Both the position numbers and the translations under genes were made by a program. Source: Buxus sempervirens (lineage: Eukaryota; Streptophyta; Magnoliopsida; Buxales; Buxaceae). From it: a DNA stretch of 64,000 bases. Location: assembly GCA_947561395.2 (NCBI GenBank), contig OX387192.1:1488001-1552000 (forward strand). Reading direction: 5' to 3'. Shown one piece after another: positions 34,091-58,421 of the stretch. Positions within the stretch are counted from its first letter, which is position 1, and every line of letters begins with the position of its first letter. The notes under the pieces are model-generated. The model saw nothing but the letters and a program-made list of their open reading frames with translations, was not told where the DNA came from and searched no databases.

Positions 34091-34191
34091 TGTCTGAGGG
34101 GTGTAGACACCCCAAATTGCACAAACAATCATAAAAAATCATTATCTCCTTGAAAGCCAGCACAGAAATTGAAGAAAATGAATTTTCACCT

Positions 34192-34333
34192 GTATCCGGT
34201 AACGTAGACCGGATACAAGCAGGCCTTTTCGTATCCGGTAACAGGTACCGGATACCAGCAGTGCTTAGTGTATCCGGTACCATGTACCGGATACCTTAAG
34301 GCCCTTTTGTATCCGGTCTGATATACCGGATAC
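34192..34333. promoter_or_regulatory. palindrome array in 5' LTR (four units, 39-bp period)
   Basis: Perfect copies of GTATCCGGT-N7-ACCGGATAC start at 34192, 34231, 34270 and 34309. Spacers differ in sequence (AACGTAG, AACAGGT, ACCATGT, CTGATAT) but all are 7 nt. The array ends about 155 bp before the TATA box, so it lies in the promoter region. Confidence 0.9.
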
Positions 34334-34488
34334 ATTAAGTTTGCTTAAAATTAGGGTTTTCCGAGAGAAATCACTTGTTACCATCATGTCCCTCATTAAA
34401 TGAGGGGAAATCTCGGAAACAACCCTAGGGTTAAGGTTGGAGGGTTCTAGACATTAAGTTGTGTCTACCAATGACCTTAGCCTTTGCC

Positions 34489-34500
34489 TATAAATAGGAG
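34489..34500 (+). promoter_or_regulatory. TATA box of the 5' LTR
   Basis: The sequence is TATAAATAGGAG, conserved at 41084 and 56526 in the other two LTR copies. Transcription is expected to start about 30 bp downstream. Confidence 0.75.
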
Positions 34501-36385
34501 GCTTCTTTTCAAGCAAAGGACCAAGTTTTTGGAGATCAAAGAACTCCGAGTGAAGAAGGGAACCGCTGCCGGATTGCTTCCAGAACCCCTGGTAAGCCTC
34601 AACCCTCATTTATTTTCTGTATTTAATTTATTAGATCTAGATCTCTTCTTCTACCTTTCTGTAGAATAAAGCCTCTTTTTGTGTGTGGAAATCCTTCCCT
34701 GGCTCAAAGTATCTCAAGACTCCCCTAGCCGTAAAACGTGAAGGCGGATCTAGGAGAAACGAGACTGGGGATTGACCCTAGTGATAGAACCTATGTAGCA
34801 TAAGGCTTTTTGAATGATTGAAAACCGTTCTATAATCAAAGTACCCTTGATTATCTCGAAGAACCGTGTTTAACGGGGAGAGAGAACAGAGGGAAACGAT
34901 AATGGAACGGAACCCTAGGCTATGCTAGAACCTATCTTGTTAAATCTATATGCATGATATGTTGTTGTATTAATCTTGCTTGGTTTTTCACTCTTGCACA
35001 CATATTACACTTTTTGGTGAATAGGCTCACATTTGGGGATTTATTACATTCATTGTGATAAATCTCCAATAAATGGCTTCAATCAAATTCTGGAGTGTTT
35101 TAAATGTTTTTCAAAGGTTTTGGATTCATCTCACACGAATCTCACACACTTTATAAATTTTCGGATTTGATTTTCTTCAAAAATGGCCTAACTGGACAGC
35201 ACCTGTACCCTTACTTCGGATGCTCATAACTTCATCGTCCGGATGAATTTTGGAGCGATTCTAGAACCATGGGAAAGGTGAGGCTGTCTAGTTTATGTCC
35301 ACCAAATTTCATAAAGTTGCATCAAACGGATTTTTGACACCTCTCTGTCGAAGTTAAGTGGACAGTTCAGGTTCAAATACAGAACTTGTCACTTCGACGG
35401 AGCGCCATGTGTTCGTTTTAAGTCCGATTCGAATGATTTTTGTTTCTGAGTACTCCTTTATGAGTCTATTTTCAAATCCAGTTAGTTTCATAATTTTTGG
35501 ATTCCATTTGAATTATTGGTAGCCGATTTACTCAAAACTGTTCATTTGTACTTTTCTGGGTAAATCTGTGATCTTCGGGGCCTGTTCGGGAGACCACCCA
35601 AGGCACATCCGAAAGGATTTTTGTATGAGGCTAGTTTTTTTTGAAAGATGGCCATACAGACTTCAATCACACCAAATTTCGTGGATTTTTATGGAGTGGA
35701 TTTTTCTATGTAATTTACCAAAGTTGCCCACTTATCACTTTTAAAAATCCCCAGCAGCAACTTCAAAGGAGCATAACTCCTAGGATTTTCATCGGAATGA
35801 AGTGAAATTTTGCATGAGACTCTTATTTACCCTAATCTTTCAAATGAATTTGGTTTGGTTCAATTTAGAATTGGATTTGAATGATTTCAAGGCAAATGGC
35901 ATACTTTTTACCGAATTTTCCAGATTTGATTTAACTTGGTTTTAAGCAACTTGAGCTTTGGATTTCCATCTTTTGAGATATTCCAGAAATGATATTGACA
36001 TAAGAGAGGATCTAAAATCCATTTAGATCTTCATGTGAAAATATCATACATTAGTCCTTTTTCAAGGTTTTCTATGATTTTAGCAAGCTTTCTTTTTTTT
36101 TGCATGAACATACACTTGGCAACCACTTTGTGTGGATGAATGGGGGTACCTAACACTTTCCCCCGTTTATAATCTAATCCCCTTACCCATCTCTGGATTT
36201 GATTTTCAAGTAGGATTGTTTTTATCCTAGAATGTTTCTTTTGTCTCTTTCTTGCTTATTTTTGAACATTTTGGTGTCCATTCTCACCCCAAAATCATGA
36301 ATGGTGGCGACTCTCCCATTTTTGCGATGAGCCCGTGTGTTGACGGAGGGATGATCATTCCGGTGATTTTCCCATGTCTCAGAAC

Positions 36386-36403
36386 TGGCGACTCTGCTGG
36401 GGA
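36386..36403 (+). promoter_or_regulatory. primer binding site
   Basis: TGGCGACTCTGCTGGGGA lies two bases inside the 5' LTR and is the tRNA-Arg-type primer site usual in Tat/Ogre elements. Confidence 0.8.
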
Positions 36404-37912: not shown

Positions 37913-38054
37913 TTAACCGGCAACTCAGGCCGGTTAAGAACACTTTCCTTCATATCCGGTATATATTTCCGGATACAAAGATATATGCGTGTATCCGGTT
38001 AGGTTTACCGTATACAATAAGGCATATTCTTATCCGGTATATTATACCGGATAC
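37913..38054. promoter_or_regulatory. palindrome array in gag leader (four units, 39-bp period)
   Basis: Units start at 37913, 37952, 37991 and 38030, exactly 39 bp apart. The first has different but mutually complementary arms, TTAACCGG-N9-CCGGTTAA. The next three are close to GTATCCGGT-N7-ACCGGATAC, with one or two changed bases each. Confidence 0.88.
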
Positions 38055-38399
38055 GTTCAAAAAATGCACAAATTGGCTTTTCAGCCCAAATTTTCAGAAT
38101 AAAATGCCTAAAACACTGTGGATAATCCTTAGGCACCCCGAAAAGAACATAAGAAATGTTCCAGAAATACAAAATCAAAAACAAAAGAAAAAGACAAAAA
38201 ATAAAAATAAAATAAAATATTCTTTCAAGATTTAACCTAATTTCGAAACTCAAAGAAGGAACCAAGGTGTCATATTTTTTGATACCAACTCAATTCAAAC
38301 ATATGTCAATCAAACTTTTGAACTTGAAATCTGGGAAAATTCAGCAAATTTTAAATAAAAAAAAAACCTTGGTTGATTATTTTTATCAGTCAAATCAAT

Positions 38400-38815
38400 T
38401 TTTTTTAGGACCTTTGGAAGCCTCAGAATATTCCAAAAACCTTTGTTTGGTCACGAGTACCACTCAAAGTCAATTTTTTTAGGACCTTTGGAAGCCTCAG
38501 AATATTCTAAAAACCTTTGTTTGGTCACGAGAACCACTTAAAGTCAAAACTTTTTAGGACCTTTGGAAGCCTTAGAATATTCCAAGAACCTTTGTTTAGT
38601 CACGAGAACCACTCAAAGTCAAAACTTAATTAGGACATTTGGAAGCCTTAGAATATTCCAAAAACCTTTGTTTGGTCACGAGAACCACTCAAAGTCAACT
38701 TTTTAGGACCTTTGGAAGCCTCAGAATATTCCAAGAACCTTTGTTTGGTCACGAGAACCACTCGAAGTCAAAACTTTTTTAGGACATTTGGAAGCCTCAG
38801 AATATTCCAAGCAAA
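38400..38815 (+). repeat. 75-bp tandem repeat, six copies
   Basis: The core AGGACCTTTGGAAGCCTCAG starts at 38407, 38481, 38556, 38632, 38705 and 38781. Units share CCTTTGTTTGGTCACGAG. Confidence 0.9.
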
Positions 38816-39036
38816 ACAAAAAAAAATAAAAAAATAAATAAAAATAAAAAATAAAAAACAAAAAAATCTGGGCTGGTGTTCACCTGACCTACTTATCTAC
38901 ATTGATAGGTGTGTGACTCAGATTAAATGAGAGCTGATATGTTTCTTTGCTTTTCTTTCACCAGGTACATTTACTTTCAACCCAGGTGGACTTATTTGCA
39001 GTCATTGCTCCCGTAACCAGATCCAAAGCAAGAGCC

Positions 39037-40692
39037 ATGAATACTGAAGAGAACCAAGCCCAAGCTACTGTCCCCGCTCAGGACTTTACTCAGCTGCAGG
39101 AGCAAGTGGCCGGTCTGGCCAAGATGCTGGGAGACATACTGGCGGCTCAGGCCCAACAGGCCCAAGCCCCGAACCAGGCATCTACTTCCCATCAGGCACC
39201 ACCACCTCAGGCCTACATTCCGCCTCCGGCTCAGCCCATGCCGGAGCCCATTTCTGAACCAGTCCCCGAACCCATTCTGATCAGGGAAAATATAGCGGAA
39301 TCTGAGAAAGAACTGGAAAAAGAAAAGGCTAGGGATGAGATGGAAAAGAAAATGCTGCTGAGGATAGAGAGGATCCAGGCAGAGCTGAAGGAAGTGAAGG
39401 GGGGAGGCAGCCATGCAGGCACCACCTTCGAAGACCTGTGCATGTACCCGGATGTATGTCTACCGGCCAAGTTCAGGTGCCCGGACTTCGACAAATTTGA
39501 TGGCACGGGCTGCCCATTGAGCCATCTCAAATTATACTGCGGGGCCCTATGCCAGTTTGGCCGGGATGATGGCATACTGATCCAGCTTTTCCAGAGGAGT
39601 CTGACCGGGTCAGCCCTTCGGTGGTTCGCTACAGTGGACCATGGAAGGATCAGGAGGTGGAAGGACCTAGCCGACGCTTTCCTGGACCAATATAAATTCA
39701 ACTCTGAGATCGTGCCAGACCGGTACGACATGATGAGGATGACCAAGGGGAAAGATGAGCCGGTACGACAATACGCCAAGAGGTGGAGAGAGGCCGCCTC
39801 CCAGGTCAGGCCACCTATGCAAGAGCCGGAGATGATCTCCACATTTATGGGCACACTGGGGCAGCCTTTTTACAACCATCTGGTGGGCCAGATCACCACC
39901 AACTTTGCTGCCCTGGTACAAGTGGCGGACCGGATCGAGGAAGGGGTCAGGTCAGGAAGGCTGATAGACTACTCTACTCTGACTGGGCAGTCTGATTCCT
40001 CGGCCTCCATGGCCCAGAAGAAGGGAACCGGGTTCAAGAAGACAGGGGCCCGAAAAGAGGGGGAGGTGAACTTGGTCCAGGCTCCTCCAGCCAAGAAGCC
40101 ACTTCATGTGAACATCTCGGCACCCCAGCAGGCCCAACAGGCCCAGCAGTTGTACCAGACCCCGGATAATGTCAATTTCTCCCCTTCCGTGCCTGCAAAC
40201 CAGAGGAGGGCCTTTACTAAGGAGGAGAGGGAGGCTTGGATGGCAGCAATGAGGAATAGAGTCTTTACTCCTCTCCCAATATCGCTGTCCCAACTGCTGC
40301 CAACCCTACTGAAGGGGGAATATTTGACCCTGAAGGAGCCTAACCCAAATGCCCCGAAGGGCAGAAATTATGATCCAGCAATCACATGTGATTATCACAT
40401 GGGTGCACCGGGGCACTCTACTGACACTTGCTGGATGCTGAAGCATGCGGTCCAGGACTTGTTGGACCAAAAGGCCTTAGTGTTCAACACGGCTGCACCA
40501 GCCCCGTTCGGGAATGATATTGGGCAGAACCCTCTGCCTTACCATAATGGGGCAGGCCCATCCAACTCCATCACAGCCATATCCACCACCAGAAGGGCCT
40601 TTGACCCATCACAGCTTATAGCACCCGTGGGGACCACGGTCCAGGTCCGTTTTTTCCAAGAAAATGAAGAAGAGGAGATCAACATGGTGTAG
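39037..40692 (+). CDS. Tat-type gag, cut off by solo LTR
   Basis: The first ATG is at 39037 (MNTEENQAQ); the frame is open upstream to 38947. About 550 residues remain: a Gln/Ala/Pro-rich N-terminus with a coiled-coil-like glutamate/lysine stretch (EKEKARDEMEKKMLLRIERI), then the gag capsid domain with RSLTGSALRWFATVD and RRWKDLADAFLDQYKFN, and a C-terminal part with ITCDYHMGAPGHSTDTCWML, a zinc-binding-like CDYH...H...C motif. The frame ends two bases into the solo LTR at 40688. Take out the LTR and one CATGG and the frame runs on into 42994 without a break, so gag and protease were one reading frame. Role: particle capsid and nucleocapsid. Confidence 0.85.
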   Translation: MNTEENQAQATVPAQDFTQLQEQVAGLAKMLGDILAAQAQQAQAPNQASTSHQAPPPQAYIPPPAQPMPEPISEPVPEPILIRENIAESEKELEKEKARDEMEKKMLLRIERIQAELKEVKGGGSHAGTTFEDLCMYPDVCLPAKFRCPDFDKFDGTGCPLSHLKLYCGALCQFGRDDGILIQLFQRSLTGSALRWFATVDHGRIRRWKDLADAFLDQYKFNSEIVPDRYDMMRMTKGKDEPVRQYAKRWREAASQVRPPMQEPEMISTFMGTLGQPFYNHLVGQITTNFAALVQVADRIEEGVRSGRLIDYSTLTGQSDSSASMAQKKGTGFKKTGARKEGEVNLVQAPPAKKPLHVNISAPQQAQQAQQLYQTPDNVNFSPSVPANQRRAFTKEEREAWMAAMRNRVFTPLPISLSQLLPTLLKGEYLTLKEPNPNAPKGRNYDPAITCDYHMGAPGHSTDTCWMLKHAVQDLLDQKALVFNTAAPAPFGNDIGQNPLPYHNGAGPSNSITAISTTRRAFDPSQLIAPVGTTVQVRFFQENEEEEINMV

Positions 40693-42988
40693 ACACCCCA
40701 AATTGCACAAACAATCATCAAAAATCATTATCTCCTTGAAAGCCAGCACAGAAATTGAAGAAAATAAACTTTTACCTGTATCCGGATACTCAGGCCGGAT
40801 ACAAGTACTCCTTCCTGTATCCGGATACTCATACCGGATACATGTGAGCCTTAGCGTATCCGGTACCATGTACCGGATACCTTAAGGCCCTTTTTTATCC
40901 GGTCTGATATACCGGATACTTTAAGTTTGCTCAAAATTAGGGTTTTCCGAGAGCTTTTCATTTTTACCATCATGTCCCTCATTAAATGAGGGGAAATCTC
41001 GGAAATAACCTTAGGGTTAAGGTTGGGGGGGTTCTAGACATTAAGTTGTGTCTACCAATGGCCTTAGCCTTTGCCTATAAATAGGAGGCTCCTCCTTGAG
41101 CAAATGGCACTCAACTCTTGTTTTGAACTCTCGCAAAGAAGAACTCCAAGAGAAGAAGAAAACCGCTGCGGAATCGCCTCAATAACTCAGGTAAGCCTCA
41201 ACTTTTCTTTTTATTTTCTGTCTTTACATTCCTAGATCTAGATCTCTTCTTCTACCTTTCTGTAGTGTAAAGCCTTGTTTGTATGTGTGGAAATCCTTCC
41301 CCGTCTCAAAGTATCTCAAGACTCCCCTAGCCGTAAAACGTGAAGGCGGATCTAGGAGAAACGAGACTGGGGATTGACCCTAGTGCTAGAACCCATGTAG
41401 CATAAGGCTTTTGAATGATTGAAAACCGTTCTATAATCAAAGTACCCTTGATTATTTCGAAGATCCGTGTTTAACGGGGAGAGAGAACAGAGGGAAACGA
41501 TAATGGAACGGAACCCTAGGCTATGCTAGAACCTATTTTGTTGAATCTATATGCATGATATGTGGTTGTATTGATCTTGCTTGGTTTTTCACTCTTGCAC
41601 ACATATTACACTTTTTGGTGAATAGGCTCACATTTGGGGATTTATTACATTCATTGTGATAAATCTCCAATAAATGGCCTCAATCAAATTCTGGAGTGTT
41701 TTTAAATGTTTTTCAAAGGTTTTATATTCATTTTGCACGAATCACACACTTTTTGTCACATTTCGGATTTGGTTTTACTCAAAAGTGGCTTAGCTTGACA
41801 GCACATGTACCCTTACTTCGGACGCCCATAACTTCATCATCCGGATGAATTTTGGGGCGATTCCAGAACCATGAGAAAGGTGAGGCTGTCTAGTTTATGT
41901 CCACCAAATTTCATGAATTTCCATCCAACGGATTTTTGACACCTCTCTGTCGAAGTTAAGTGGACAGTTCAGGTTCAAGTACAGAACTTGTCACTTCGAC
42001 GGACCGCCATGTGTTCGTTTTAAGTCCGATTCGAGTGATTTTTGTTTCTGAGTACTCCTTTATGAGTCTATTTTCAAATCCAGTTGGTTTCATAATTTTT
42101 GGATTCAATTTGAATTATTGGTAGCCGATTTACTCAGAACTGTTCATTTGTACTTTTCTGGGTAAATCTGTGATCTTCGGGGCCTGTTCGGGAGACCACC
42201 CAAGGCACATCCGAAGGGATTTTTGTATGAAGCTAGTTTCTTTTGAAAGATGGCCATACAAACTTCAATCACACCAAATTTCGTGGACTTTTATGCAGTG
42301 GATTTTTCTAGACAATTTTCCAAAGTTGCCCACTTACCACTTTTAAAAATCCCCAGCAGCAACTTCAAAGGAGCATAACTCCTAGGATTTTTATCGAAAT
42401 GAAGTGAAATTTTGCATGAGACTCTTATTTACCCTAATCTTTCGAATGGATTTGGTTTGGTTCAATTTAGAATTGGATTTGAATGATTTTAAGGCAAATG
42501 GCATACTTTTTACCAAACTTCCCGGATTTGATTCAACTTGGTTTTGAGCAACTTGTGCTTTGATTTCCACCTTTTTAATGTTCCAGAAATGATATTGACA
42601 TAAAAGGAGAACCCGAAATTTATTTGGATTCTCATGTGAAGGTATCATACATTTGACCTTTTTCAAGGTTTCTCATGATTTTTAGCAAGCTTTCTTACTT
42701 TGTTTTTGCATGAACATACACTTGGCAACCACTTCGTGTGGATGAATGGGGGTGCCTAACACATTCCCCCGTTCATAATCTAATCCCCTTACCCATCTCT
42801 GGATTTGATTTTCAAGTAGGGTTATTTTTATCCTAGAATGTTTCTTTTTTCACTTTTTGCTTATTTTGAACTCTTTGGTGTCCATTCTCACCCCAAAATC
42901 ATGAATGGTGGCGACTCTCCCACTTTTGCGTTGAGCCCGTGTGTTGACGAAGGGAGATCACCCCGGTGATTTTTTCCCATGTCTCACA
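40688..42988 (+). mobile_element. solo LTR of the same Tat family at the gag-protease seam
   Basis: It begins TGTAGACACCCC, ends CATGTCTCACA and has a perfect target duplication CATGG (40683-40687 and 42989-42993). It aligns along its full length with the two LTRs of the host element but differs from them more than they differ from each other. It is therefore a separate insertion of a sister subfamily reduced to one LTR, not part of a tandem element. Confidence 0.88.
40778..40919. promoter_or_regulatory. palindrome array in the internal solo LTR (four units, 39-bp period)
   Basis: Units start at 40778, 40817, 40856 and 40895, exactly 39 bp apart. The first two have central changes (GTATCCGGA-N7-GCCGGATAC and GTATCCGGA-N7-ACCGGATAC), the third is perfect and the fourth begins TTATCCGGT. 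Confidence 0.88.
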
Positions 42989-42993
42989 CATGG

Positions 42994-44657: not shown

Positions 44658-45146
44658 CCCTATAACCCATCTCCAGTACTGGGAGCAGAAGATGGGCCTA
44701 GGCCACAGCCCGAGCAGCAGGTGGACTTTTCTGAGGATGTTGGTGCATTCTTCGCCATGGCTGAGGGCGATAAAACAGGGGCAGACATGGAACTGCCATT
44801 TATTGACGGGGCCGCAGTGAAGATCCCAGATGAGGTCATATCTGGACTGGGCCCCGTAACAGAAAAGGGCAGTACCCACCCGGTGATGATGGCATCGGAT
44901 GCTGGGCTTGAGGAGCAGGCTTTCCCTATTTCCCCTGCTCCCAAAAATTTTGTAATGAACAATTGGGAGGAAACTCCCCTTACCTTTGAAGCAGCGTTAG
45001 TTCGGCAAACTGACGCGGCTTCCAAAAAAAAACTCCAATAGTGGAATGCCATTTCCCTGAAGGTTCTAATGGGCCTTCGTCTTCAGGGGAATTATGTTTA
45101 GAAGGCCCACAAAAAACCCAAAAAGATTTTTCTATTTTTTTCTAGA
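44658..45146 (+). other. protease-RT linker with in-frame stops, possible intron
   Basis: The frame of protease and of reverse transcriptase is the same here, but it is closed by TAA at 44655, TAG at 45039 and TAG at 45099. Ogre elements splice out an intron between protease and reverse transcriptase. A pyrimidine-rich acceptor TTTTTTTCTAG ends at 45145 and the reverse transcriptase frame is open from there. I did not find a strong donor. Confidence 0.5.
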
Positions 45147-48100
45147 AAATTTAAATTTTTTAAAAAGGTCCAAACCACTTATGAACCATATAATCAGACC
45201 GAATTGGACCAGGTTGAATATGACTTCGACTTCGAGCTCGACTTTGACCTTATGGGGATCGAAGAAGAGATCGAGGTTGAAGAAGAAGACGTTCCAAAAG
45301 AAATTGAATACCAATTGGAACGTCATGAAAAGGGGGTCCAACCTAATATTGAGGAGATCATATCCATAAACCTGGGGACCGAAGATGACCCAAAAATTGT
45401 GAAAATCGGGTCATGCTTGTCTGATGTGCAGAAAAATGAAATGTCACAGTTCTTGGCAGACTACAAAGATGTGTTTGCTTTGTCGTATCGGGACATGCCA
45501 GGGTTGGACACGGACATGGTGGTGCACAAATTGCCAATTTTGCCAGGGGTTAAGCCGATTAAGCAGAAGCTGAGAAGATTGAAACCTGAGTGGACTCTGA
45601 AGGTCAAGGACGAAGTGGTCAAACAGTTCCAAGCCGGATTTCTGCCAGTCTCTACGTACCCTGAGTGGCTCGCAAATATAGTACCAGTACCAAAGAAGGA
45701 CGGGAAGGTCCGAATGTGCGTGGACTATAGAGACTTGAACAGGGCAAGCCCAAAGGACGATTTTCCGCTTCCACACATCGACATTCTGGTCGATAATACT
45801 GCGGTACATAGCCTGTTTTCCTTCATGGATGGTTTCTCGGGGTACAATCAGATCAAGATGGCTAAGGAGGATCAAGAGAAAACAGCATTTATCACACCTT
45901 GGGGCACATTCCACTACACAGTCATGCCATTTGGGCTTAAAAACGCTGGGGCAACATACCAGCGGGCCATGACTGCACTATTCCATGACATGATCCATAA
46001 GGAGATGGAGGTCTACGTGGATGATATGATTGCCAAATCATGCAAAGAGGAGGACCACTTGATCAATCTGAAAAAGGTGTTTGATCGGCTCAGGAAGTAT
46101 AGTCTACGGCTTAACCCGGCTAAGTGCGTCTTTGGGGCTACATCAGGGAAGTTACTGGGGTTTATTGTGAGCCGAAGAGGAATTGAAATTGACCCGGCTA
46201 AGGCCAAGGCCATAATTGAAATGTCAGCACCCAGAACCGAGAAGGAGGTTCGTGGTTTTCTCGGGAGGATTCAATACATAAGCCGGTTCATAGCACAGCT
46301 CACTGCTATCTGTGAACCGATTTTCAAGCTTCTAAGGAAAGATAACCCGACGGTCTGGAATGAGGACTGCCAGAAGGCATTTGATACAATAAAGAGGTAT
46401 TTACTGAACCCGTCGGTACTAGTGCCACCAACTCCAGGAAGACCGCTAATCCTGTACTTGTCAGTGTTGGAAACGTCGATGGGATGTGTCTTGGGGCAAC
46501 ATGATGAGACTGGTAGAAAAGAAAGGGCAATTTACTATCTGAGTAAAAAATTCACGGAATATGAATCCAAATACTCACCATTGGAAAAGACTTGCTGTGC
46601 TCTAGTGTGGGCCACTCAGAGGCTAAGGCATTATTTCTTTAGTCACTCCACACTATTGATATCCCGGATGGACCCGCTGAAGTATTTATTTGAGAAACCG
46701 GCATTGACTGGCAGGACGGCTAAGTGGCAACTGCTACTGTCCGAGTTTGACCTCACATACATCACCCAGAAGGCGATCAAGGGTCAAGCCATAGCTGATC
46801 ACCTGGCTGCACATCCTTTGCCAGAATATCAACCCTTGAAGACCAACTTCCCAGATGAGGCAATTCTGTACACTGAAGAGGAGGACAGTGAGAGTTCTTG
46901 GCAGATGTTCTTTGATGGGGCCGCCAATATGAATGGGAACGGAATAGGGGCAGTCTTGGTTAAACCAGATGGTTCACATATCCCAATTGCAGTAAAGCTG
47001 AGATTCCAGTGCACCAATAACATAGCAGAATATGAGGCATGCATAATTGGATTGCAAGCAGCCATGGATCATGGAGTAGAGGAACTTGACGTATACGAGG
47101 ATTCGAGTCTTATCATCTTCCAAACAACTGGTGAGTGGAAAACCAAGGATCACAAATTGATCCCCTATCACCAGTATTTGGAAGAAATAAGCACAAATTT
47201 CACTCGAATTTCCTTCAACTATATGCCAAGGGCCAAAAATCAGTTTGCGGATGCTCTAGCAACCTTGGCTTCAATGGTCAGCATACCAGAAGGAGTAGAC
47301 ATCAGACCGCTGGAAATTGAGGTTAGAGATGAACCGGCTTACTGTCTCGTTCTAGAGGGAGCACCAGAAGAAGAAATACCATGGTTTCAAGATATCAAAA
47401 ATTTCTTGAATAATCGGAGTTTACCAGAAAATGCCACGTCTACTGAGAAGAGGACAATACAGAGGTTGGCGGGTCAGTTTCTGCTAAGTGGTGGACATGT
47501 GTACAAGAGGTCACATAACGACATTCTGCTCAGATGTGTTGCCAAGGCTGAATCGGAAAGGCTGATTGAGACTGTACATGGAGGAGTCTGTGGGCCCCAT
47601 ATGAGTGGGCACATGCTGGCTAAGAAGATCCTGAGGCTGGGATACTACTGGACGACCATGGAGCATGATTGCTGTGTACATGTCAAGAGGTGCCACCAAT
47701 GCCAAATATATGCAGATAACAAGCATGCACCCCCAGGTGAGTTGCATAACATGACATCACCATGGCCCTTCTCTATGTGGGGCATAGATGTTATTGGCAT
47801 GATCTCCCCTAAGGCATCGAACGGGCACAGATTCATCCTGGTGGCGATTGATTACTTTACTAAATGGGTGGAAGCAGCATCATATGCAAATATCACAAGC
47901 AACCACGTGATCAAATTTTTGAAGCACAACATTATTTGTCGCTATGGACTGCCAAGTGCCATAGTATCAGACAATGCTTCAAATATTAAGAACAAGGACA
48001 TGAAGAAAATGTGTGAGCAGTTTCAGATCACCCATCATAAGTCAGCTGCGTACAGGCCAAAGATGAATGGGGCAGTAGAAGCAGCCAACAAGAATATAAA

Positions 48101-48629
48101 GAAAATCATTCAAAAGATGGTAGTAAGTTACAAGGATTGGCATGAAATGCTGCCACTTGCTCTACATGCCTACAGAACCTCGATCCGGACTTCAACTGGG
48201 GCAACCCCGTACTCCCTAGTCTATGGGATGGAAGCAGTCTTGCTCGTGGAAGTAGAGATCCCATCACTCCGAGTGCTCATGGAAGCAGAACTAGAAGAAG
48301 CCGAATGGGTCCAGTCGAGACATGATCAACTTAACCTGATAGAAGAAAAGCGGTTAAAAGCGCTTTGCCATGGACAGTTGTACCAGAAGAGAATGGCCCG
48401 GGCCTTCAATAAGAAGGTGAGGCCCAGAACTTTCCAAGAAGGAAACTTAGTGCTAAAGAAAATCTTACCATTTTTGGAAGACCCTCGTGGTAAGTTCAAG
48501 TCCAATTGGGAAGGGCCTTATGTCGTCAAGAAGGTCCTGTCAGGGGGTGCACTCATCTTAGCAAAAATGGATGGGTCAGATTTTCCTGAGCCAATTAACT
48601 CTGATGCAGTAAAAAGGTATTTTCCTTGA
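45147..48629 (+). CDS. Tat-type reverse transcriptase, dual RNase H and integrase
   Basis: The frame is open for about 1160 residues to TGA 48629. Counting from 45204, order is: acidic leader; reverse transcriptase with VCVDYRDLN-like MCVDYRDLNRASPKDDFPLP and catalytic YVDD (271-274); first RNase H with YYLSKKFTEYESKYSPLEK; a second, archaeal-type RNase H starting MFFDGAANMNGNG (Asp571); integrase zinc finger with HGGVCGPH and CHQC; and integrase core with Asp862 (GIDVIG), Asp923 (SDNAS) and Glu959, a DD35E spacing. All catalytic residues I can check are present, so this part looks intact. Role: copies the RNA and inserts the DNA. Tandem RNase H domains identify the Tat lineage. Confidence 0.93.
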   Translation, partial: KFKFFKKVQTTYEPYNQTELDQVEYDFDFELDFDLMGIEEEIEVEEEDVPKEIEYQLERHEKGVQPNIEEIISINLGTEDDPKIVKIGSCLSDVQKNEMSQFLADYKDVFALSYRDMPGLDTDMVVHKLPILPGVKPIKQKLRRLKPEWTLKVKDEVVKQFQAGFLPVSTYPEWLANIVPVPKKDGKVRMCVDYRDLNRASPKDDFPLPHIDILVDNTAVHSLFSFMDGFSGYNQIKMAKEDQEKTAFITPWGTFHYTVMPFGLKNAGATYQRAMTALFHDMIHKEMEVYVDDMIAKSCKEEDHLINLKKVFDRLRKYSLRLNPAKCVFGATSGKLLGFIVSRRGIEIDPAKAKAIIEMSAPRTEKEVRGFLGRIQYISRFIAQLTAICEPIFKLLRKDNPTVWNEDCQKAFDTIKRYLLNPSVLVPPTPGRPLILYLSVLETSMGCVLGQHDETGRKERAIYYLSKKFTEYESKYSPLEKTCCALVWATQRLRHYFFSHSTLLISRMDPLKYLFEKPALTGRTAKWQLLLSEFDLTYITQKAIKGQAIADHLAAHPLPEYQPLKTNFPDEAILYTEEEDSESSWQMFFDGAANMNGNGIGAVLVKPDGSHIPIAVKLRFQCTNNIAEYEACIIGLQAAMDHGVEELDVYEDSSLIIFQTTGEWKTKDHKLIPYHQYLEEISTNFTRISFNYMPRAKNQFADALATLASMVSIPEGVDIRPLEIEVRDEPAYCLVLEGAPEEEIPWFQDIKNFLNNRSLPENATSTEKRTIQRLAGQFLLSGGHVYKRSHNDILLRCVAKAESERLIETVHGGVCGPHMSGHMLAKKILRLGYYWTTMEHDCCVHVKRCHQCQIYADNKHAPPGELHNMTSPWPFSMWGIDVIGMISPKASNGHRFILVAIDYFTKWVEAASYANITSNHVIKFLKHNIICRYGLPSAIVSDNASNIKNKDMKKMCEQFQITHHKSAAYRPKMNGAVEAANKNIKKIIQKMVVSYKDWHEMLPLALHAYRTSIRTSTGATPYSLVYGMEAVLLVEVEIPSLRVLMEAELEEAEWVQSRHDQLNLIEEKRLKALCHGQLYQKRMARAFNKKVRPRTFQEGNLVLKKILPFLEDPRGKFKSNWEGPYVVKKVLSGGALILAKMDGSDFPEPINSDAVKRYFP

Positions 48630-49588: not shown

Positions 49589-51047
49589 CTAGTCTCTGTC
49601 TTCTAGCTGCTCCTCAAGCTCCCGAATCCGAGCTGCCTGAGCTGCAATGACTCCTGAAGCCCCCTCTGCAGCGGGATCACTCAAGAAGGAAATGACCTCA
49701 TCTGAAAGGGCCTGCCTGATCCGCAAACTCCTAAGGCTGGCCAAAGTATCCTGGTACTTCTGCCGGATCATACGGACCTCGAAGCTACGGGCCTGCCTCT
49801 GCTCCTCCAGCTTCTCTTCCACGGCAATACGGCGTGAGATCTGCTCCTCAAGCTGCCTCTCCAGATAAGTGCCCTGTATCCTGAACTCCTGGGCCTCCCA
49901 TACCCATATCTGCTGAAGCCGCTTATGAGAAGCCCGTTCAGACTCTAGAATGTCCTCATAGGTGGGAGCCAAGACTACAGGAGGATCTTCGGGTACCGGG
50001 GCCTGAATCTGTATCTGTTCCTTGATCCAGAAGAGATAATCCTTCACATGGGCTTCTGAGAAGACTGGACCATGCATGAAGCGGACATAGGACCACTCCT
50101 TCATCAACCAGGCATTCAGCTTCATAGAAAGGGGCCCAAGACGATCCTCATATCCACATGGGATGATAATCCCCTGGGTCACAAGGAACTGACGAAGGAC
50201 CCGCAAAGGAAGATACAGCACTGCATGCTTCAGGCCCGCTAGGATCAGAAAGTTGCGGTCACGGAAGCTAATCATTGTCGCTGCATTGGGCTGATAAGTG
50301 CCAGGCCATCTCACCTGGTCCTCCTGAAGTGAGCCCAAGAAAGTGAACCAGCCCTGTTTGCCCCCTGGAATATCGGGGCACCCCCTGTTGCTCATCAAGA
50401 AGGGGACTTTTAGACTCGGGAAGAAGTGTCGATTGATCTCTTCAATCTGGCTCAAATGATCAAGTAGCCAAAGCTGCAAAGGAAGAGAGATATGTCAGCA
50501 CATTGTAAAAAAAAAAAAAAAAAGCAAGAAAAAGGCAAAAAGAAAGCCAAAAAGCAAGAAAAATTAAAAAAAAAATTTTTTTTTACCTGCAGGATCTGGG
50601 CACATGCTAGGAAGCGTTTCGACTTCCTATTGTAGCAGTCGGTCAAGGCCTGATACATCCCAGCTAAAATCATAGGGGCCAACCTCTCCCTCTCCCGAAC
50701 CTGGCATATCACTGAAATCAAGGCTAAGTCCACCTCATCATCCTCCCGTGGGAAAAGTAACTGGTTGACCACAATCAGGGTCAACGCATTGAATCGGGTC
50801 TCCTTGTTCTCCCCTCTCAAAAGCTTCTCAGCCAAAAAAGCCTTAGATAGGGTCAAAAGGGTGTCAGAATCCCCCAAGTCCTTCTTCCCTATGCCCAAAA
50901 AAGTAGAAGCTTCCTTCTTGTAACTGGGCCTAAGAGGTGGATTCACCACCTTCTCATCAAACCTCAAGCCCAAGATGGTTTCCACCTCTCAATGGTTGGG
51001 GTCATCTCATGGTTCCCAAAATGCTCAAATCCTGAGGCTGGTTGCAT
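49589..51047 (-). pseudogene. antisense DUF7745-like gene with one frameshift
   Basis: Minus strand, two exons. Exon 1 runs from ATG 51047 to 50587 (donor CTGCAG/GTAAAA); exon 2 runs from 50473 to the stop at 49589 (acceptor TTTGCAG). The protein begins MQPASGFEHFGNHEMTPTIE. A missing base near 50987 then shifts the frame to VETILGLRFDEKVV. Text such as NALTLIVVNQLLFPREDDEV and CAQILQ-LWLLDHL fits the domain I recall as DUF7745, found in extra genes of Tat elements. The C-terminus (about 140 residues) is coiled coil, with repeated LEEQ and RIRELEEQLEDRD. Function is unknown; structure suggests oligomerisation. A four-unit palindrome array begins 18 bp upstream of the ATG. Apart from the frameshift the gene looks intact. 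Confidence 0.75.
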
Positions 51048-51064
51048 TTATAGCATCTTTTAAT

Positions 51065-51206
51065 GTATCCGGTAACTCAGACCGGATACAAAAGGCTTTA
51101 TTAATATCCGGTTAAGTATACCGGATACAAAGGATGCCATGAGTATCCGGTATGTTATACCGGATAGAAAGACCAATCAATGTATCCGGTATGTCAAACC
51201 GGATAC
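51065..51206. promoter_or_regulatory. palindrome array upstream of the DUF7745-like gene (39-bp period)
   Basis: Units start at 51065, 51104, 51143 and 51182, exactly 39 bp apart. Two are perfect GTATCCGGT-N7-ACCGGATAC; the others differ by one end base (ATATCCGGT, ACCGGATAG). It lies directly before the minus-strand start codon at 51047. Confidence 0.92.
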
Positions 51207-51440
51207 AAAGAAAAATGCAAAAAAAAGGAGCTAAGGATGAAAATTCCGAATTTTTTACCTGTTTTACCTGTGTACAAGTCATAATTGCATAAATTTAAAA
51301 ACAAAAGATGTGCAAGACAAGAGAGAATGAATCAAAGTTTTTTTCATATATATATGCAAGTTTTTGGTACAATAATGATGGAAAAGACATGAAAATCCTA
51401 AAATCTCTAACTACTCCTATGCAGGATCATCCACGCGTCC

Positions 51441-54126
51441 TCAGCCGCGTCCACCTCTACGGCCTCTACCTCGAAGCGCTCGACCCCTAGAATAGGCCAA
51501 AATGCGCTCAGCTGCATGGCGAGGATGCCGACCCACCACCTGCTGGAGCTGATACTCCAAGCAATACTCCTCGATATCTAGGGGCAGAGCAGGAGCAGAA
51601 TCTGGGGAGGAAACCTCTGGCTCAGCAGGTACGGGCTCAACTGGACCCTCAGCCATAGCAGGCTCTGCTCCCGCAGCTCCAGAAGGCCCGGCATCAGAAG
51701 AAGGGCCAGGATCAGAAATATCTGTACCAAATGGGAAAAAATCAGGAATTGGGATACTAAAATGAATAAAAGAGAAGAAACTAAGGAAAAAATACCAGCA
51801 GGCACTATGGGATCCGGATCCACTGGGTCAGCAGCAGGGACCTCCTCTGGCTCAGGAAGCATCACTGGAGCATCACCAGGATCAGCAGCTGGGACATCCA
51901 CAGGATCTGTAGCCCGAGCAGGAGACGGGTCAGGAATGAGGAAATCAGGCTTGAAGGCAGCATCCTGATCTGGGACCGGGCCCTGCACAAGGCAAACAAG
52001 CATATCAGAATACCAGAAACAGGAAAATGAAAGAAATGAAAATATGAGAAGGCCAGATACCTGTCCAGCCTGAAGCTCAGCAACTAGGGCCTCCAGCTCC
52101 CTGATCCGGGCATCCCGCTGGGCCACAACCGCATCGTGCTCAGCGATCATATCATCGATCGCGGCCCGCTGACTCTCGAACCGGTCCCGAATGGTATTCA
52201 GCTCGTGCACCTGCCAACAAGAACAGAAGTAGGGTCAGAAATGCATAAGGGGAGAAAAGATGAAAATATAAAGAGTACAAGACTTACTGTGTCCTCATGG
52301 ATCCGGATACGGATCCCGCCAATCTCAGTCACCCCAGCACGAGTGGGTCGATCCATCAAGCATCCAATAGATACCCTCTGGAACCACTCGTCATAATCCC
52401 CAGCTACTGTAAGCCCCTCTGCATCCAAGAAATGATCGAACTGATCAACATCAAAGCCAGGCAGGAGCGTGTCGGGACCCACAGGAGGAGGAGGGACGGG
52501 GATGCGAAGTGCGCCAGTGTGCTGGAAGTACAGGCGCTCTCCCAAGTACATCACCCTACCAAGCCTCCCAAGGAAGCACTGGTAGGGCTGACGTCGTCGA
52601 TCTCTATCGAAGGCGTCCTGTACCGCCATCTCACGGGCCACTCCGACGTCCACGTCATCAAATCGGGACAGGAGGAGCTGCAAAAAAGGAAACAGTCAGG
52701 TACAGTCAAGATACAGGAAAGGAAGTAAAAGAAAAAAGATAGAGGACTTACATCAGATCGGCGGGCACGGTCTAAGTGCACCCGGGCAATACGAGGCTGG
52801 CTCCTATCAGCATCCCGGACCTGGGCCGACCATCGCAAAGCCACTGGGAAATCTGCGACCTCAGGTACCTGGGATGGGCGGAAGAAAGTCATGTAGGTGT
52901 ACATGAACACCTGGTAAAAGAAAATCGGTCAGGAAGGGATAAAGCCTAAACGAATTAAACCAGACAGGGGAAGTTCAATACCTGTAAAATCTGCCAGAAA
53001 AACCGGCTGCTGACTCCATCACCTCTCGGGGATGCCAGGCCTCGAACCGCTCGGCACAACCCGGCCAAGATGGTCCCATAGATGAGTCGGCCCCATGCCA
53101 GCTGGCGGGTCTGATGAAGATCTCTCAAAGCGTCCAGGAAAAGTGGGCTGACGCCGGTCGTATCCTCCGGGAAAAAGCAGCTCCCAAGCATCAACAGAAA
53201 AACATGCCGGAAGATAGGCACAAAATCTGCATCCTCCACGGAGATGGTCGCATGTCTCCCGCCGTAATGACGAGCCAGGCTCTCTCGCAGCCAGCTGATG
53301 GAAAGACGACCACTCCGCCCATCCCAAGCAGCAGGTGGCAGGGCCTGATATCCCAAGAGAAGGCCGATATCCTCCGCAGAAGGCCGCTCCAAGACAATGG
53401 TCCGCCCCATCAAGGGAATGCCAGTAATCATCACAAAATCGGAGGGGCGGATCCCCAGCTCCACGTTCGGTAGATGGAATGACTGCGTCTCTGGGAAATA
53501 TCTCTCCATCATGGCAAAAATGAGCGGACGGTCGGCTCTAAACGATGGAATACTAAGGAAATGATCCAGGTGGCACCTCCCAAACTCCCGCCTGAGTGCC
53601 AGGGAAAGCGACTGAGCTAACTCACTAAATCTCCCCCAACTACCCCGCAGATGGGAAGAATGATATGGAAGCGGCACATCTGCCCTGATGCACATAGAGG
53701 GATGGCTATCCAAGCCACTGAGGAGCTCTGTGTCATGAACAGAGGCCCTCAACTCCTCAGAAACTCCTGTCAGAGCTACAGCAGTACCCTCCTGAGCCGT
53801 GCCTCTGGCTCTGCCTCGGCCTCTGCCACGGCCTCTCTCGCCCTCAAGGGCCTGATCCTGAACTCTGCCTCTACCTCGGCCTCGACCTCGAGCAGGTGCA
53901 GCCACGGGCTAAATTTCAAAGAGAAAGGTGAAGATTGGTGCAGGAGGAGAATGAAGAAAAAAGGAAAATTTTTTTTTTGAAAGCCTACCTCAGCAGAGCT
54001 CTCCCGGGAGACATCTAGTGGCTCCGATAAGGTGGCGCTGGAACTCGCCTCCGTCCGAGCCCACGAAGTGGAGGGCTGATCAGCTGGGTCAGCCTCCTCT
54101 CTAACACGGGAACGACTCCTAGCCAT
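51441..54126 (-). CDS. antisense plant-mobile-domain gene, seven exons, intact
   Basis: Minus-strand exons 54126-53989, 53908-52982, 52910-52752, 52677-52288, 52210-52061, 51982-51796 and 51721-51441 all have GT-AG borders and join in frame to 743 residues. Order: Ser/Arg-rich start; Arg-Gly repeats (about 50-80); plant mobile domain (about 110-530) with LDHFLSIPSFRADRPLIFAM, FHLPNVELGIRPSDFVMITG and LPPAAWDGRSGR; coiled coil (539-588) with RIRELEALVAELQAG; Pro/Asp-rich acidic part; C-terminal GRGRRGGRG. Mobile-domain proteins include host MAIN/MAIL1, needed for transposon silencing, and versions inside Gypsy and Mutator elements. Here it may help the element counter silencing or control its own expression; that is inference. 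A leader exon and intron seem to precede it, and two palindromes lie about 1.4 kb upstream of the ATG. Confidence 0.85.
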
Positions 54127-55500
54127 CTATACAGGGAAGTGTTTTATAAATTTTAGTTCAAATCTATCTGGAATCCTATTTTGCTCAGTTCAAATTGATC
54201 AAAAATTTCACTTTGATTTTATAGGTTCTAACTCTGGTTCATCAGGAATCTTGTATGATTTTGTTCAGGAATTGTGTTGTAGTTCAAAGTCTTTTAGAAA
54301 ATATTCCTATATTATTCTAAAAAAATTTTTTTGTTTACAAAGCCTAATACTTGATAATTTACTGCAGGATTGCTACATCGGTGCAAAAGAAAAGGGTCTG
54401 AGCTAAGTCCCAAAGGTCCATCTAGGAAAAGCCCTAGCAGTTAAAGCCCCTCATTGGTCAAGAGCCGGCTAGGGTCCGATCGGAAAAGAACTAGACACTG
54501 TCAAAGATATCATGTTCTAAAAATAGCAGCTCAATAACAGCATGCAATCAACTCTAGAACACAAGTGGAAAACTTGCTTTGAAAATATCAAAGGGATAAA
54601 GCCAAAGGTGGTCTAGAACAAGTCATGGGAAGATCATGTCAGGTGGAGCATTACTTTAAGTTAAGAATCAGAGCATGGTTGAAAACAAATCATATCATCC
54701 AGAGCAAGTTCAAATCATGAGATAAACAATTCAGTTCATCATTGGCAGGCAATTCCAAGGTCTAAGGCAACAAGCCATGGTCATTAGGAATCATAAAGTA
54801 AATGACGAAAAAATGTGGCAGCATCAACAATACCAAGAGTTTATGAGCAAATTCGGTCAGTATGCAGAGATTCAACAAAAAATGCCAAATCTGATCATAT
54901 GTACTTATGAAGAACAATGAAGAACTAGGCAATCAAGCATAAGAATCAAAATCCAATCAAGGGAATTGAAAAGCATCACATTATCCAGAGTGTCATTAAC
55001 AGTCAATCAACATTGCATCCAGTTCTGAAGAATTGACAAGGACAAAACAAATAACATGGCAACATTGCTTGGATATGGCACTAAAGCACATTACAAAGGA
55101 AAAATAGCACATGGCATTGAAATTCGTCCAAATAAGCATGAATTGGTTACCAAAAAAAATTCCAATCTCACTAACCTGGGCGAGCAGTGGAGAAAGCAAG
55201 TGCCTGATTGCAAGTGGGAATCAAGGGACAAGTAGCCGGAGCAAAACCTCCAATGTCAAGTTGAGAAATCACAAGAGAATGGGAAAAATCGAGCTAGGGC
55301 TCGACTGCGGCTGTCAAGGAGCAATCGGGAAGTCGCCGGAGCTACAGGTTGTCGCCGGCAGCAAAAGGAAGCACCGGAGTCGTCAGAGATCGCCGGAGAA
55401 GAAGGAGGATCGTCGGTCGTCGAAGAAGGAAAACCTGGGGCCGGTCTGAGTTATTGGAGAATGAAGAAAAGAAATGAAAAGTCGCGGTCGTGCGCGACTT
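54127..55500 (-). other. probable leader exon and leader intron of the mobile-domain gene
   Basis: On the minus strand a GC-rich, gene-like stretch (about 55480-55180) ends in GCTCGCCCAG/GTTAGTGAG, a good splice donor. CCTGTATAG directly before ATG 54126 is a good acceptor. The interval 55179-54127 would be a 1.05 kb leader intron, with no coding sequence seen in it. Confidence 0.6.
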
Positions 55501-55513
55501 AAGTAACCCTAGG

Positions 55514-55577
55514 GTATCTGGATACTCAGGCCGGATACAAACAAGGCTAGGGGTATCCGGATACACATACCGGATAC
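55514..55577. promoter_or_regulatory. two palindromes upstream of the mobile-domain gene leader
   Basis: Units start at 55514 and 55553, 39 bp apart: GTATCTGGA-N7-GCCGGATAC and GTATCCGGA-N7-ACCGGATAC. They are followed on the minus strand by the presumed leader exon, so they lie at promoter position. Confidence 0.85.
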
Positions 55578-55581
55578 CAAA

Positions 55582-55738
55582 TAAAAAAGAAAAAAAAACA
55601 GGAAAAAAACAGAAAAAAAAGAAAAAAAAACAGAAAAATAGAAAAAAAAATAATATAAAAAAAGAAGACAACAAAAAAGGAAAAGAAAAAAAAAAGAAAA
55701 AAAAGAGAAAAAAGAGAAAAAAAAAAAAAAAAAGAGAG
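55582..55738. repeat. A/AG-rich low-complexity tract
   Basis: About 155 bases are almost only A and G with a few C and T. Long Lys-rich and Phe-rich reading frames here are artefacts. Confidence 0.9.
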
Positions 55739-56128
55739 CAAACTAGTGCTATAAGTCTTACTATTTTCTCAAAATCCTATTTTTGTCTTGAAATCCACCT
55801 CACAGCCACAAGAGCTCAGTGGAATTTAGGGCAACCTTGGGAAATGTGCTGGTCAAAAGGATGATATCCACTCAACTTTTAACTTGGTTTGATAAAAAAT
55901 CAGTTTTCAAAAATCCTATTTTTGGGCTTAAAATCCACTTCATAGCCACGAGAGCTTAGTGGAATTTAAGAACTCTTGGAGAGATGCCCCCCTTAAAGTT
56001 AGGGCTTTTTGGCAAATCTCCACTCAAAAATTGTTTTCTACAAAATTGAATTGAACCGAGCAAATCATGCTCAAGGAAATGCAATTTGGGCTTGTCTACT
56101 CTTTGCAGCTCACTGCTTCGTAGCTCCC

Positions 56129-56143
56129 GCAAAGAGGGGCAGT
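56129..56143 (+). promoter_or_regulatory. polypurine tract of the Tat-type element
   Basis: GCAAAGAGGGGCAGT abuts the TGTAGACACC start of the 3' LTR. Confidence 0.75.
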
Positions 56144-58421
56144 TGTAGACACCCCAAATTGCACAAACAATCATCAAAAATCATTATCTCCTTGAAAGCC
56201 AGCACAGAAATTGAAGAAAATGAATTTTCACCTGTATCCGGTAACGTAGACCGGATACAAGCTTTTCGTATCCGGTAACAGGTACCGGATACCAGCAGTG
56301 CTTAGTGTATCCGGTACCATGTACCGGATACCTTAAGGCCCTTTTGTATCCGGTCTGATATACCGGATACATTAAGTTTGCTTAAAATTAGGGTTTTCCG
56401 AGAGAAATCACTTGTTACCATCATGTCCCTCATTAAATGAGGGGAAATCTCGGAAACAACCCTAGGGTTAAGGTTGGAGGGTTCTAGACATTAAGTTGTG
56501 TCTACCAATGACCTTAGCCTTTGCCTATAAATAGGAGGCTTCTTTTCAAGCAAAGGACCAAGTTTTTGGAGATCAAAGAACTCCGAGTGAAGAAGGGAAC
56601 CGCTGCCGGATTGCTTCCAGAACCCCAGGTAAGCCTCAACCCTCATTTATTTTCTGTATTTAATTTATTAGATCTAGATCTCTTCTTCTACCTTTCTGTA
56701 GAATAAAGCCTCTTTTTGTGTGTGGAAATCCTTCCCTGGCTCAAAGTATCTCAAGACTCCCCTAGCCGTAAAACGTGAAGGCGGATCTAGGAGAAACGAG
56801 ACTGGGGATTGACCCTAGTGATAGAACCTATGTAGCATAAGGCTTTTTGAATGATTGAAAACCGTTCTATAATCAAAGTACCCTTGATTATCTCGAAGAA
56901 CCGTGTTTAACGGGGAGAGAGAACAGAGGGAAACGATAATGGAACGGAACCCTAGGCTATGCTAGAACCTATCTTGTTGAATCTATATGCATGATATGTT
57001 GTTGTATTAATCTTGCTTGGTTTTTCACTCTTGCACACATATTACACTTTTTGGTGAATAGGCTCACATTTGGGGATTTATTACATTCATTGTGATAAAT
57101 CTCCAATAAATGGCTTCAATCAAATTCTGGAGTGTTTTAAATGTTTTTCAAAGGTTTTGGATTCATCTCACACGAATCTCACACACTTTATAAATTTTCG
57201 GATTTGATTTTCTTCAAAAATGGCCTAACTGGACAGCACCTGTACCCTTACTTCGGATGCTCATAACTTCATCGTCCGGATGAATTTTGGAGCGATTCCA
57301 GAACCATGGGAAAGGTGAGGCTGTCTAGTTTATGTCCACCAAATTTCATAAAGTTCCATCCAACGGATTTTTGACACCTCTCTGTCGAAGTTAAGTGGAC
57401 AGTTCAGGTTCAAATACAGAACTTGTCACTTCGACGGAGCGCCATGTGTTCGTTTTAAGTCCGATTCGAATGATTTTTGTTTCTGAGTACTCCTTTATGA
57501 GTCTATTTTCAAATCCAGTTGGTTTCATAATTTTTGGATTCCATTTGAATTATTGGTAGCCGATTTACTCAAAACTGTTCATTTGTACTTTTCTGGGTAA
57601 ATCTGTGATCTTCGGGGCCTGTTCTGGAGACCTCCCAAGGCACATCCGAAGGGATTTTTGTATGAGGCTAGTTTCTTTTGAAAGATGGTCATACAGACTT
57701 CAATCACATCAAATTTCGTGGATTTTTATGGAGTGGATTTTTCTATGTAATTTCCCAAAGTTGCCCACTTATCACTTTTAAAAATCCCCAGCAGCAACTT
57801 CAAAGGAGCATAACTCCTAGGATTTTCATCGGAATGAAGTGAAATTTTGCATGAGACTCTTATTTACCCTAATCTTTCAAATGAATTTGGTTTGGTTCAA
57901 TTTAGAATTGGATTTGAATGATTTCAAGGCAAATGACATACTTTTTACCGAATTTTCCAGATTTGATTTAACTTGGTTTTAAGCAACTTGAGCTTTGGAT
58001 TTCCATCTTTTGAGATATTCCAGAAATGATATTGACATAAGAGAGGATCTAAAATCCATTTAGATCTTCATGTGAAAATATCATACATTAGTCCTTTTTC
58101 AAGGTTTTCTATGATTTTAGCAAGCTTTCTTTTTTTTTTGCATGAACATACACTTGGCAACCACTTTGCGTGGATGAATGGGGGTGCCTAACACCTTCCC
58201 CCGTTCATAATCTAATCCCCTTACCCATCTCTGGATTTGATTTTCAAGTAGGATTGTTTTTATCCTAGAATGTTTCTTTTGTCTCTTTCTTGCTTATTTT
58301 TGAACATTTTGGTGTCCATTCTCACCCCAAAATCATGAATGGTGGCGACTCTCCCATTTTTGCGATGAGCCCGTGTGTTGACGGAGGGATGATCATTCCG
58401 GTGATTTTCCCATGTCTCACA
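56144..58421 (+). repeat. 3' LTR of the Tat-type element
   Basis: It begins TGTAGACACCCC, ends CATGTCTCACA and is nearly identical to 34102-36383. Its array lacks 5 bp (AGGCC) in the first linker. TATA box at about 56526. Confidence 0.92.
56234..56370. promoter_or_regulatory. palindrome array in 3' LTR (four units)
   Basis: Perfect 25-bp units start at 56234, 56268, 56307 and 56346. The first interval is 34 bp because of a 5-bp deletion in the linker; the others are 39 bp. Confidence 0.9.

Follow-up and report, generated by a model that had tools for sequence, protein, structure and literature searches.

Palindrome arrays in a Tat-type retrotransposon

The window analysed here, a 64,000-nucleotide stretch of Buxus sempervirens DNA (contig OX387192.1), contains a long terminal repeat (LTR) retrotransposon in which a palindromic site is repeated in several short, phased arrays (table 1). 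The domains of its pol frame follow the gypsy-type order (reverse transcriptase (RT) 196-356, RNase H 419-549, RVT_3 604-722 and integrase 889-986). The RVT_3 domain, present in addition to RT_RNaseH, represents a second RNase H domain, a feature reported as a Tat trait in the accessible text of PMC9289625. Domain order and second RNase H together indicate that the host element most likely belongs to the Tat lineage of Ty3/gypsy (Ogre-like). Its two LTRs were 98.9% identical over 2281 bp (5' LTR against 56144-58419), and none of the nine frames scanned in the element gave an ENV-like Pfam match. A solo LTR, approximately 91% identical to those of the host element, is located between gag and the next frame. 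The leader also carries, between array 2 and gag, a 76-bp tandem repeat of about 5.5 copies (38402-38811).

The window was searched with the consensus palindrome GTATCCGGT-N7-ACCGGATAC, allowing at most three mismatches, and 100 shuffles of the window served as the control. Twenty-one sites fitted this consensus, compared with a mean of 0.01 and a maximum of 1 in the shuffles. A further site at 37913 reads TTAACCGGC-AACTCAG-GCCGGTTAA, and thus has off-consensus letters while being a perfect inverted repeat. In the original prediction, made from the letters of this DNA, 22 sites in six arrays had been assigned to one retrotransposon. All six array starts (34192, 37913, 40778, 51065, 55514 and 56234) were correct and the 22 sites are real, but only 18 of them lie inside the host element, the other four (40778-40919) being part of the nested solo LTR.

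Within the window arrays the step was 39 bp throughout, the sole exception being the 34-bp step from 56234 to 56268 in the 3' LTR. Alignment with the other LTR resolved this step as a 5-bp deletion, as predicted. The spacer of the first unit was AACTCAG-like in each of the four kinds of array, so the spacers are non-random. The observed/expected ratio of CpG was 1.09-1.64 in the four-unit arrays, compared with 0.50 in the internal region and 0.57 in the remaining LTR.

Table 1. Positions in the window of the host element, the palindrome arrays and associated features.
Feature	Position	Strand	Remarks
Host element, Tat-type Ty3/gypsy	34102-58421		Flanked by the 5-bp repeat AGGGG
Target site duplication (TSD) AGGGG	left 34097..34101, right 58422-58426	.	
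5' LTR of host element	34102..36381	+	Starts TGTAGACACC
Palindrome array 1	34192..34333	+	Four units, 39-bp step; U3 of 5' LTR
LTR TATA box CTATAAATAG	34489..34496	+	155 bp after array 1
Palindrome array 2	37913..38054	+	Four units, 39-bp step; leader upstream of gag; unit 1 is a symmetric variant
gag open frame (Retrotrans_gag)	38938..40692	+	
Nested solo LTR, related subfamily	40688..42988	+	Outside the host element proper; own TSD CATGG
Nested solo LTR array	40778..40919	+	Four units; TATA box of the solo LTR at 41076
pol open frame	45102..48629	+	RT, RNase H, second RNase H-like domain, integrase
Antisense gene 2	49592..50988	-	Two open frames, DUF7745/PMD-like
Antisense gene 2 TATA box TATAAATG	51045..51052	-	12 bp after array 3
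Palindrome array 3	51065..51206	.	Four units, 39-bp step; presumed promoter of antisense gene 2
Antisense gene 1	51441..54127	-	Several open frames; extent inferred
Palindrome array 4	55514..55577	.	Two units, 39-bp step; upstream of antisense gene 1
3' LTR of host element	56144..58421	+	TATA box at 56526
Palindrome array 5	56234..56370	+	Four units in the 3' LTR; one 34-bp step through a 5-bp deletion
Sister-family LTR-like unit	28370..30732	-	Starts TGTAGACACC, then TGGCGACTCC; boundaries approximate
Class-2 array	29963..30177	.	Three plus two units, 28-bp step; 14 bp upstream of TATAAATA (minus strand, 29948)

Genomic copies and conservation of the arrays

The genome (676.5 Mb) contained 5,920 exact sites of this palindrome, hereafter class 1, and no match to the reversed control pattern. 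Twenty loci of 10 kb, fetched around exact sites on one contig, were pooled with the window; as each locus was seeded on an exact site, the proportion of copies that carry arrays is not derivable from them. Four 3-kb loci were excluded from the unit and step counts. The pooled set held 183 units in 53 arrays, of which 36 had four units, six had three, ten had two and one had a single unit. The step was exactly 39 bp in 122 of 130 cases, and the eight other steps were 26, 34, 38 (four) and 40 bp (two). Several subfamilies were represented among the loci, with LTR identity falling to approximately 65-72%. Wherever the half-sites TATCCGG and CCGGATA lay less than 22 bp from each other, the distance between them was 9 bp (131/131 pairs; 47 records).

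Conservation was measured in the U3 region. Twenty-two LTR copies were gathered by homology, some of them both LTRs of one element, and removal of rows at least 98.5% identical to a kept row left 15 non-redundant sequences. The mean majority-base frequency was 0.97-1.00 at arm positions 2-7, and 0.92, 0.89 and 0.73 at positions 1, 8 and 9, respectively, compared with 0.93-0.94 in the flanks and 0.81 in spacers and linkers. Mean pairwise identity was 0.910 for the arms, about 0.89 for the flanks and 0.70 for spacers and linkers, and the arms exceeded spacer and linker in 102 of 105 U3 pairs. The aligned copies thus show rapid drift of the letters between fixed half-sites. A simple satellite was rejected, as the arm cores are constant and spacers and linkers vary more than the flanks; a recent tandem duplication had also been discounted in the prediction. 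Its statement that arms are kept while spacers and linkers vary holds for the arm cores (positions 2-7), but has to be qualified for the non-random spacers of the first units.

Presumed promoters, antisense genes and a second palindrome class

Three of the four kinds of array precede either a TATA box or what is presumed to be the start of a gene, a placement that the original prediction had missed, together with a second palindrome class (29963-30177) and a precedent in Sireviruses. The distance from the U3 array to the TATA box (TATAAATA) was 155-156 bp in 19 of the 22 LTRs and 166-167 bp in the other three. In all nine aligned copies of antisense gene 2 (the window and one diverged copy included), the 12-bp gap between array 3 and TATAAATG was kept. 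The two-unit array was aligned in 8/8 copies, although decayed in some; it is found just ahead of the leader presumed for antisense gene 1, whose start codon was placed near 54126 from the sequence. These aligned copies came from homology queries containing the array, so that loss of an array is undetectable in them. At approximately 50950-51010, between TATA box and first frame of gene 2, the eight other aligned copies all share one stretch, and the window has a different one.

Both antisense gene regions are on the minus strand, between pol and the 3' LTR. Antisense gene 1 contains a match to the plant mobile domain (PMD, PF10536) at 52958-53908 (E = 3.2e-14). The ratio of nonsynonymous to synonymous substitution (dN/dS) was 0.07-0.11 for this PMD frame (against seven copies, a single stop in two of them), 0.05-0.13 for frame g2a of gene 2 (against eight copies, a single stop in two of them) and 0.10-0.23 for frame g1b of gene 1 (against eight copies). 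These values are close to those of the gag and pol pieces (0.04-0.20, with one short gag piece at 0.27). The low dN/dS across copies shows that the tested antisense frames evolved as proteins, under purifying selection.

Among 7,980 scored candidate proteins, only two were homologues at E <= 0.001, one of them a MAIN-LIKE 1-like protein of Camellia sinensis. A search of the PDB with the PMD frame returned no convincing relative (one match, E = 0.79), and its single-sequence AlphaFold2 model was uninformative (pLDDT 37.9). The function of the antisense genes of plant LTR retrotransposons is described as unknown in the accessible texts of PMC7264820 and PMC11963269. Upstream of other PMD genes, long inverted-repeat pairs were seen at L027 2471-2613, L028 366-509 and L029 1626-1980 (GGGTCGTGCA..TGCACGACCC and TCTCTTGGGC..GCCCAAGAGA), with two copies each and no phased rows.

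The class-2 palindrome, GCCCGTA-N7-TACGGGC, came to light when 3-kb flanks beside 14 other PMD genes were scanned; the genome (676 Mb) had 11,266 exact sites of it and the reversed control none. In the window it is found in the LTR-like unit of a sister family, whose TGTAGACACC start and following TGGCGACTCC resemble those of the host element, TGGCGACTCC being the presumed primer site of the latter. The last class-2 half-site was 14 bp before TATAAATA in 5/5 aligned LTRs (window, L034, L043, L044 and L045); at L044 most of the array was lost apart from this half-site. The two classes have the 7-bp spacer in common, but differ in arms, linker (14 vs 7 bp) and step (39 vs 28 bp). The class-2 array had a CpG ratio of 1.58.

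Other class-2 arrays, with two to five units each and mostly 28-bp steps, were detected at L043 239-343, L044 1039-1143 and L046-L049, and some of them carry matched arm changes (GACCGTA..TACGGTC). A palindrome with arms of the GACGCGT..ACGCGTC type lies between the two class-2 groups of the window. In L050 (approximately 1000-1770), an internal region beside a class-2 LTR contains many tandem copies of a unit that includes TCTATTTTAGCCAAACGGCTGGGA.

Two other groups of repeats were noted in the window. At 10358-10687 and 14872-15030 there are 41/81-bp repeats together with the inverted repeats TTATTACGGCATTTT / AAAATGCCGTAATAA, possibly the ends of a DNA transposon. At 19269-19489 a 109-bp sequence stands twice in tandem (100% match), and each copy has an inverted repeat of the CACGGTGATA type.

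Candidate functions and known relatives

Because half-site geometry is constant, the distance to the TATA box nearly so, the arm cores conserved and the spacer length common to a sister class, the arrays are probably, although with modest confidence, promoter-proximal operators, i.e. rows of sites for a dimeric sequence-specific DNA-binding protein. Each palindrome would bind one dimer through two facing TATCCGG half-sites at a fixed distance. We infer the binding of a protein, its dimeric state, its action on transcription and the use of the TATA boxes as promoters from these sequence features. Since the spacer of unit 1 is AACTCAG-like in all four kinds of array, a single ancestral array seems to have been copied. 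This four-unit array would have been placed before the sense promoter (LTR U3) and before both antisense genes, so that one factor would co-control these transcription units. A dimeric DNA-binding protein or a row of RNA hairpins had been proposed in the original prediction; the former appears to fit best.

Several observations weigh against the operator reading. No TATA box was recognised near the leader array (37913-38054) or at the two-unit array (55514-55577), the latter of which also had a CpG ratio of merely 0.75, and the gene-2 arrays include steps of 38 and 40 bp. Six further class-2 arrays (L043, L044 and L046-L049) were without a TATA box at the 14-bp distance. The 2.4 kb beside one class-2 LTR (a presumed LTR pair, with the same spacers twice) gave no match to PMD or to any other domain, and no frame longer than 114 aa. 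The 3-kb upstream flanks of the 14 other PMD genes contained no class-1 palindrome (0/14) and one lone half-site; a general tie between the palindromes and PMD genes was therefore rejected. At L034, a PMD family had no recognised palindrome row before its presumed LTR TATA box; this PMD element, with 34% identity in 163 aa of pol, seems to be of another family, and the class-2 array at that locus appears to be a separate LTR insertion.

The alignments add three further points on that side. The arms exceeded the flanks in just 65 of 105 U3 pairs, a slight margin due to the variable inner positions 8-9. Distinct indels numbered three in 142 array columns against 14 in 377 flank columns (22 U3s), those of the arrays including the 5-bp linker deletion in the 3' LTR of the window and a 7-bp insertion at L023. 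As array indels are not clearly rarer than flank indels, the constant array length could largely reflect their rarity. Finally, spacers were inverted between copies (ATACTCAAT to ATTGAGTAT in L010/L011, and ACCATGT to ACATGGT in L015), which indicates that exchange from arm to arm occurs; it can restore symmetry on its own, and some of the symmetry may hence be mutational in origin. Of the selection on symmetry and phasing that had been proposed, constraint on the arm cores is upheld, symmetry may be due to more than selection, and the case for selection on phase is weaker than claimed.

A transcription factor of the host, such as a regulator of stress or hormone responses, may read the operators, in which case the element would hijack a host signal and the antisense proteins would have another role. 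This alternative overlaps with the operator reading, which leaves the identity of the reader open, and we regard it as a serious but lesser possibility. To our knowledge, rows of such long half-sites (7-9 bp) are unusual for host factors. The second class, with other arms and the same spacer, has the look of a factor and its site changing together, which would be easier to explain if the factor were encoded by the element. On the other hand, the motif is common to several subfamilies, and cis boxes in plant LTRs are often stress-related host-factor sites, the Sirevirus motifs having matched mainly such sites in PLACE (PMC2829016, accessible text).

An operator-binding factor could also be encoded by the antisense PMD/DUF7745 genes of the element itself, and we put this forward only tentatively, a host factor being the reader otherwise. 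The placement of arrays beside the antisense genes and the change of half-site between families speak for it, and the existence of PMD genes in other families that lack such palindromes speaks against it. A self-encoded factor would give a self-regulating or anti-silencing circuit of the VANC type. It is rather doubtful that this extends to a regulon, in which dimers of the antisense PMD/DUF7745 proteins would bind the palindromes and control in trans, across the family, both the LTR promoter and their own genes, by activation or anti-silencing. Sister families would then differ in the half-site and keep the 7-bp spacing, since protein and site would change together. If true, this would be an LTR-retrotransposon counterpart of VANC, and might account for the Sirevirus motifs too.

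An old 39-bp tandem repeat without function is an unlikely explanation. Its symmetry would be maintained by template switching between the arms, and its step by the scarcity of indels. Quasipalindrome correction, with flips of the spacer, is the mechanism by which this would proceed, and the spacer inversions, the correlated changes at arm pairs 4, 8 and 9 and the indel counts given above are all in line with it. However, it leaves unexplained why different arrays and subfamilies keep one half-site core amid drift faster than in the flanks, why the distances between array and TATA box are nearly constant, and why a second class has the same spacer and placement.

A role of the arrays as rows of hairpins within the genomic RNA, in packaging, RNA stability or as small-RNA precursors, is similarly improbable. 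The full-length sense RNA would contain every array. The U3 array folded into one long hairpin (-95.2 kcal/mol, z = -13.6) and the gene-2 array gave z = -9.6, but such scores prove little, because good folding is expected of every palindrome array. Arm pairs 4, 8 and 9 covaried beyond column composition in both counts, and pairs 3 and 6 exceeded the shuffles in the looser count alone, in statistics that ignore sequence kinship; pair 1 and the spacer pairs showed no excess. Mismatches at arm pairs 2-9 comprised 26 G-U (sense strand), 20 A-C and 57 other pairs among 109 distinct oriented sites, or 28, 35 and 85 when pair 1 was added. This lack of a sense-strand wobble bias mildly disfavours the hairpins and mildly favours a DNA site. 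Moreover, hairpins would not explain the placement upstream of TATA boxes on both strands.

It is very unlikely that the arrays are targets of host silencing (seeding of small RNAs or methylation) rather than of activation: the rows are rich in CpG and CCGG and palindromic transcripts can feed small RNAs, but an element is not expected to conserve such a target, and CpG was better kept in the arms (114/119, eight columns) than in the flank (72/90, only six columns), which is contrary to long methylation, although selection could also be the cause.

The arrays offer a concrete candidate target before transcription units, and two classes in one genome allow a test of specificity. Any factor that bound the 5,920 and 11,266 exact sites (676 Mb) would have a large genomic footprint.

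In searches restricted to open-licence PMC papers, no description of such arrays in Tat/Ogre elements was found, in agreement with the original prediction. PMD proteins are known from the host genes MAIN and MAIL1, which have been linked to the 'DOWN' promoter motif and to transposon silencing (PMC7156037, Nicolau et al. 2020); the phrase 'dna binding' is absent from the accessible text of that paper. Retand elements have tandem repeats in their antisense-ORF (open reading frame) region, and a regulatory, DNA-binding role was proposed for the antisense protein (PMC11963269, Vicient 2025). Its domain is TRP28, not PMD, and in the accessible main text 'palindrom' occurs solely in a reference title and 'mobile domain' is absent.

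VANDAL transposons (Mutator-like elements, MULEs) are the closest case in which a reader encoded by the element, VANC, has been proven (PMC5735166, Hosaka et al. 2017; PMC10398659, Sasaki et al. 2023, accessible texts). In this anti-silencing system, VANC binds the motif and takes off methylation. As in the present element, rows of short motifs lie in noncoding parts near the transposon's own genes, and the motif differs by family. In contrast, repeat number changes fast in VANDAL, whereas 36 of the 53 arrays here have four units, and VANC binding has been shown, while binding to the present arrays is predicted from their sequence. The host element is, moreover, an LTR retrotransposon with gag, pol and antisense PMD/DUF7745 genes, not a VANDAL MULE.

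A close precedent is that of the Sireviruses (Ty1/copia), which carry palindromic repeated motifs upstream of the LTR TATA box, most with a CGG-CCG core; ENV-bearing members have a further motif cluster upstream of ENV, and the motifs form CpG islands (PMC2829016, Bousios et al. 2010, accessible text). Dyad-symmetric repeated boxes upstream of the LTR TATA box are likewise present in classes 1 and 2 here, as are an extra cluster before an accessory gene, CpG richness in the four-unit arrays and different palindromes in different elements. The four units per LTR fall in the Sirevirus range of 3-14, and the half-site ATCCGG/CCGGAT also occurs in the Citrus motif AATCCGGCTWRCCGGATT. The CGG-CCG core is found in class 1 (TATCCGG..CCGGATA), but not in class 2 (GCCCGTA..TACGGGC). 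Set beside the Sirevirus motifs, the present arrays repeat every 39 or 28 bp, and their spacers vary in letters while staying at 7 bp. They differ in that the host is Ty3/gypsy by gene order, and the extra boxes precede antisense PMD/DUF7745 genes, not ENV. Taken with the Sirevirus motifs and the VANC targets, the present arrays point to a recurring design of plant transposons, in which noncoding promoter regions carry rows of boxes.

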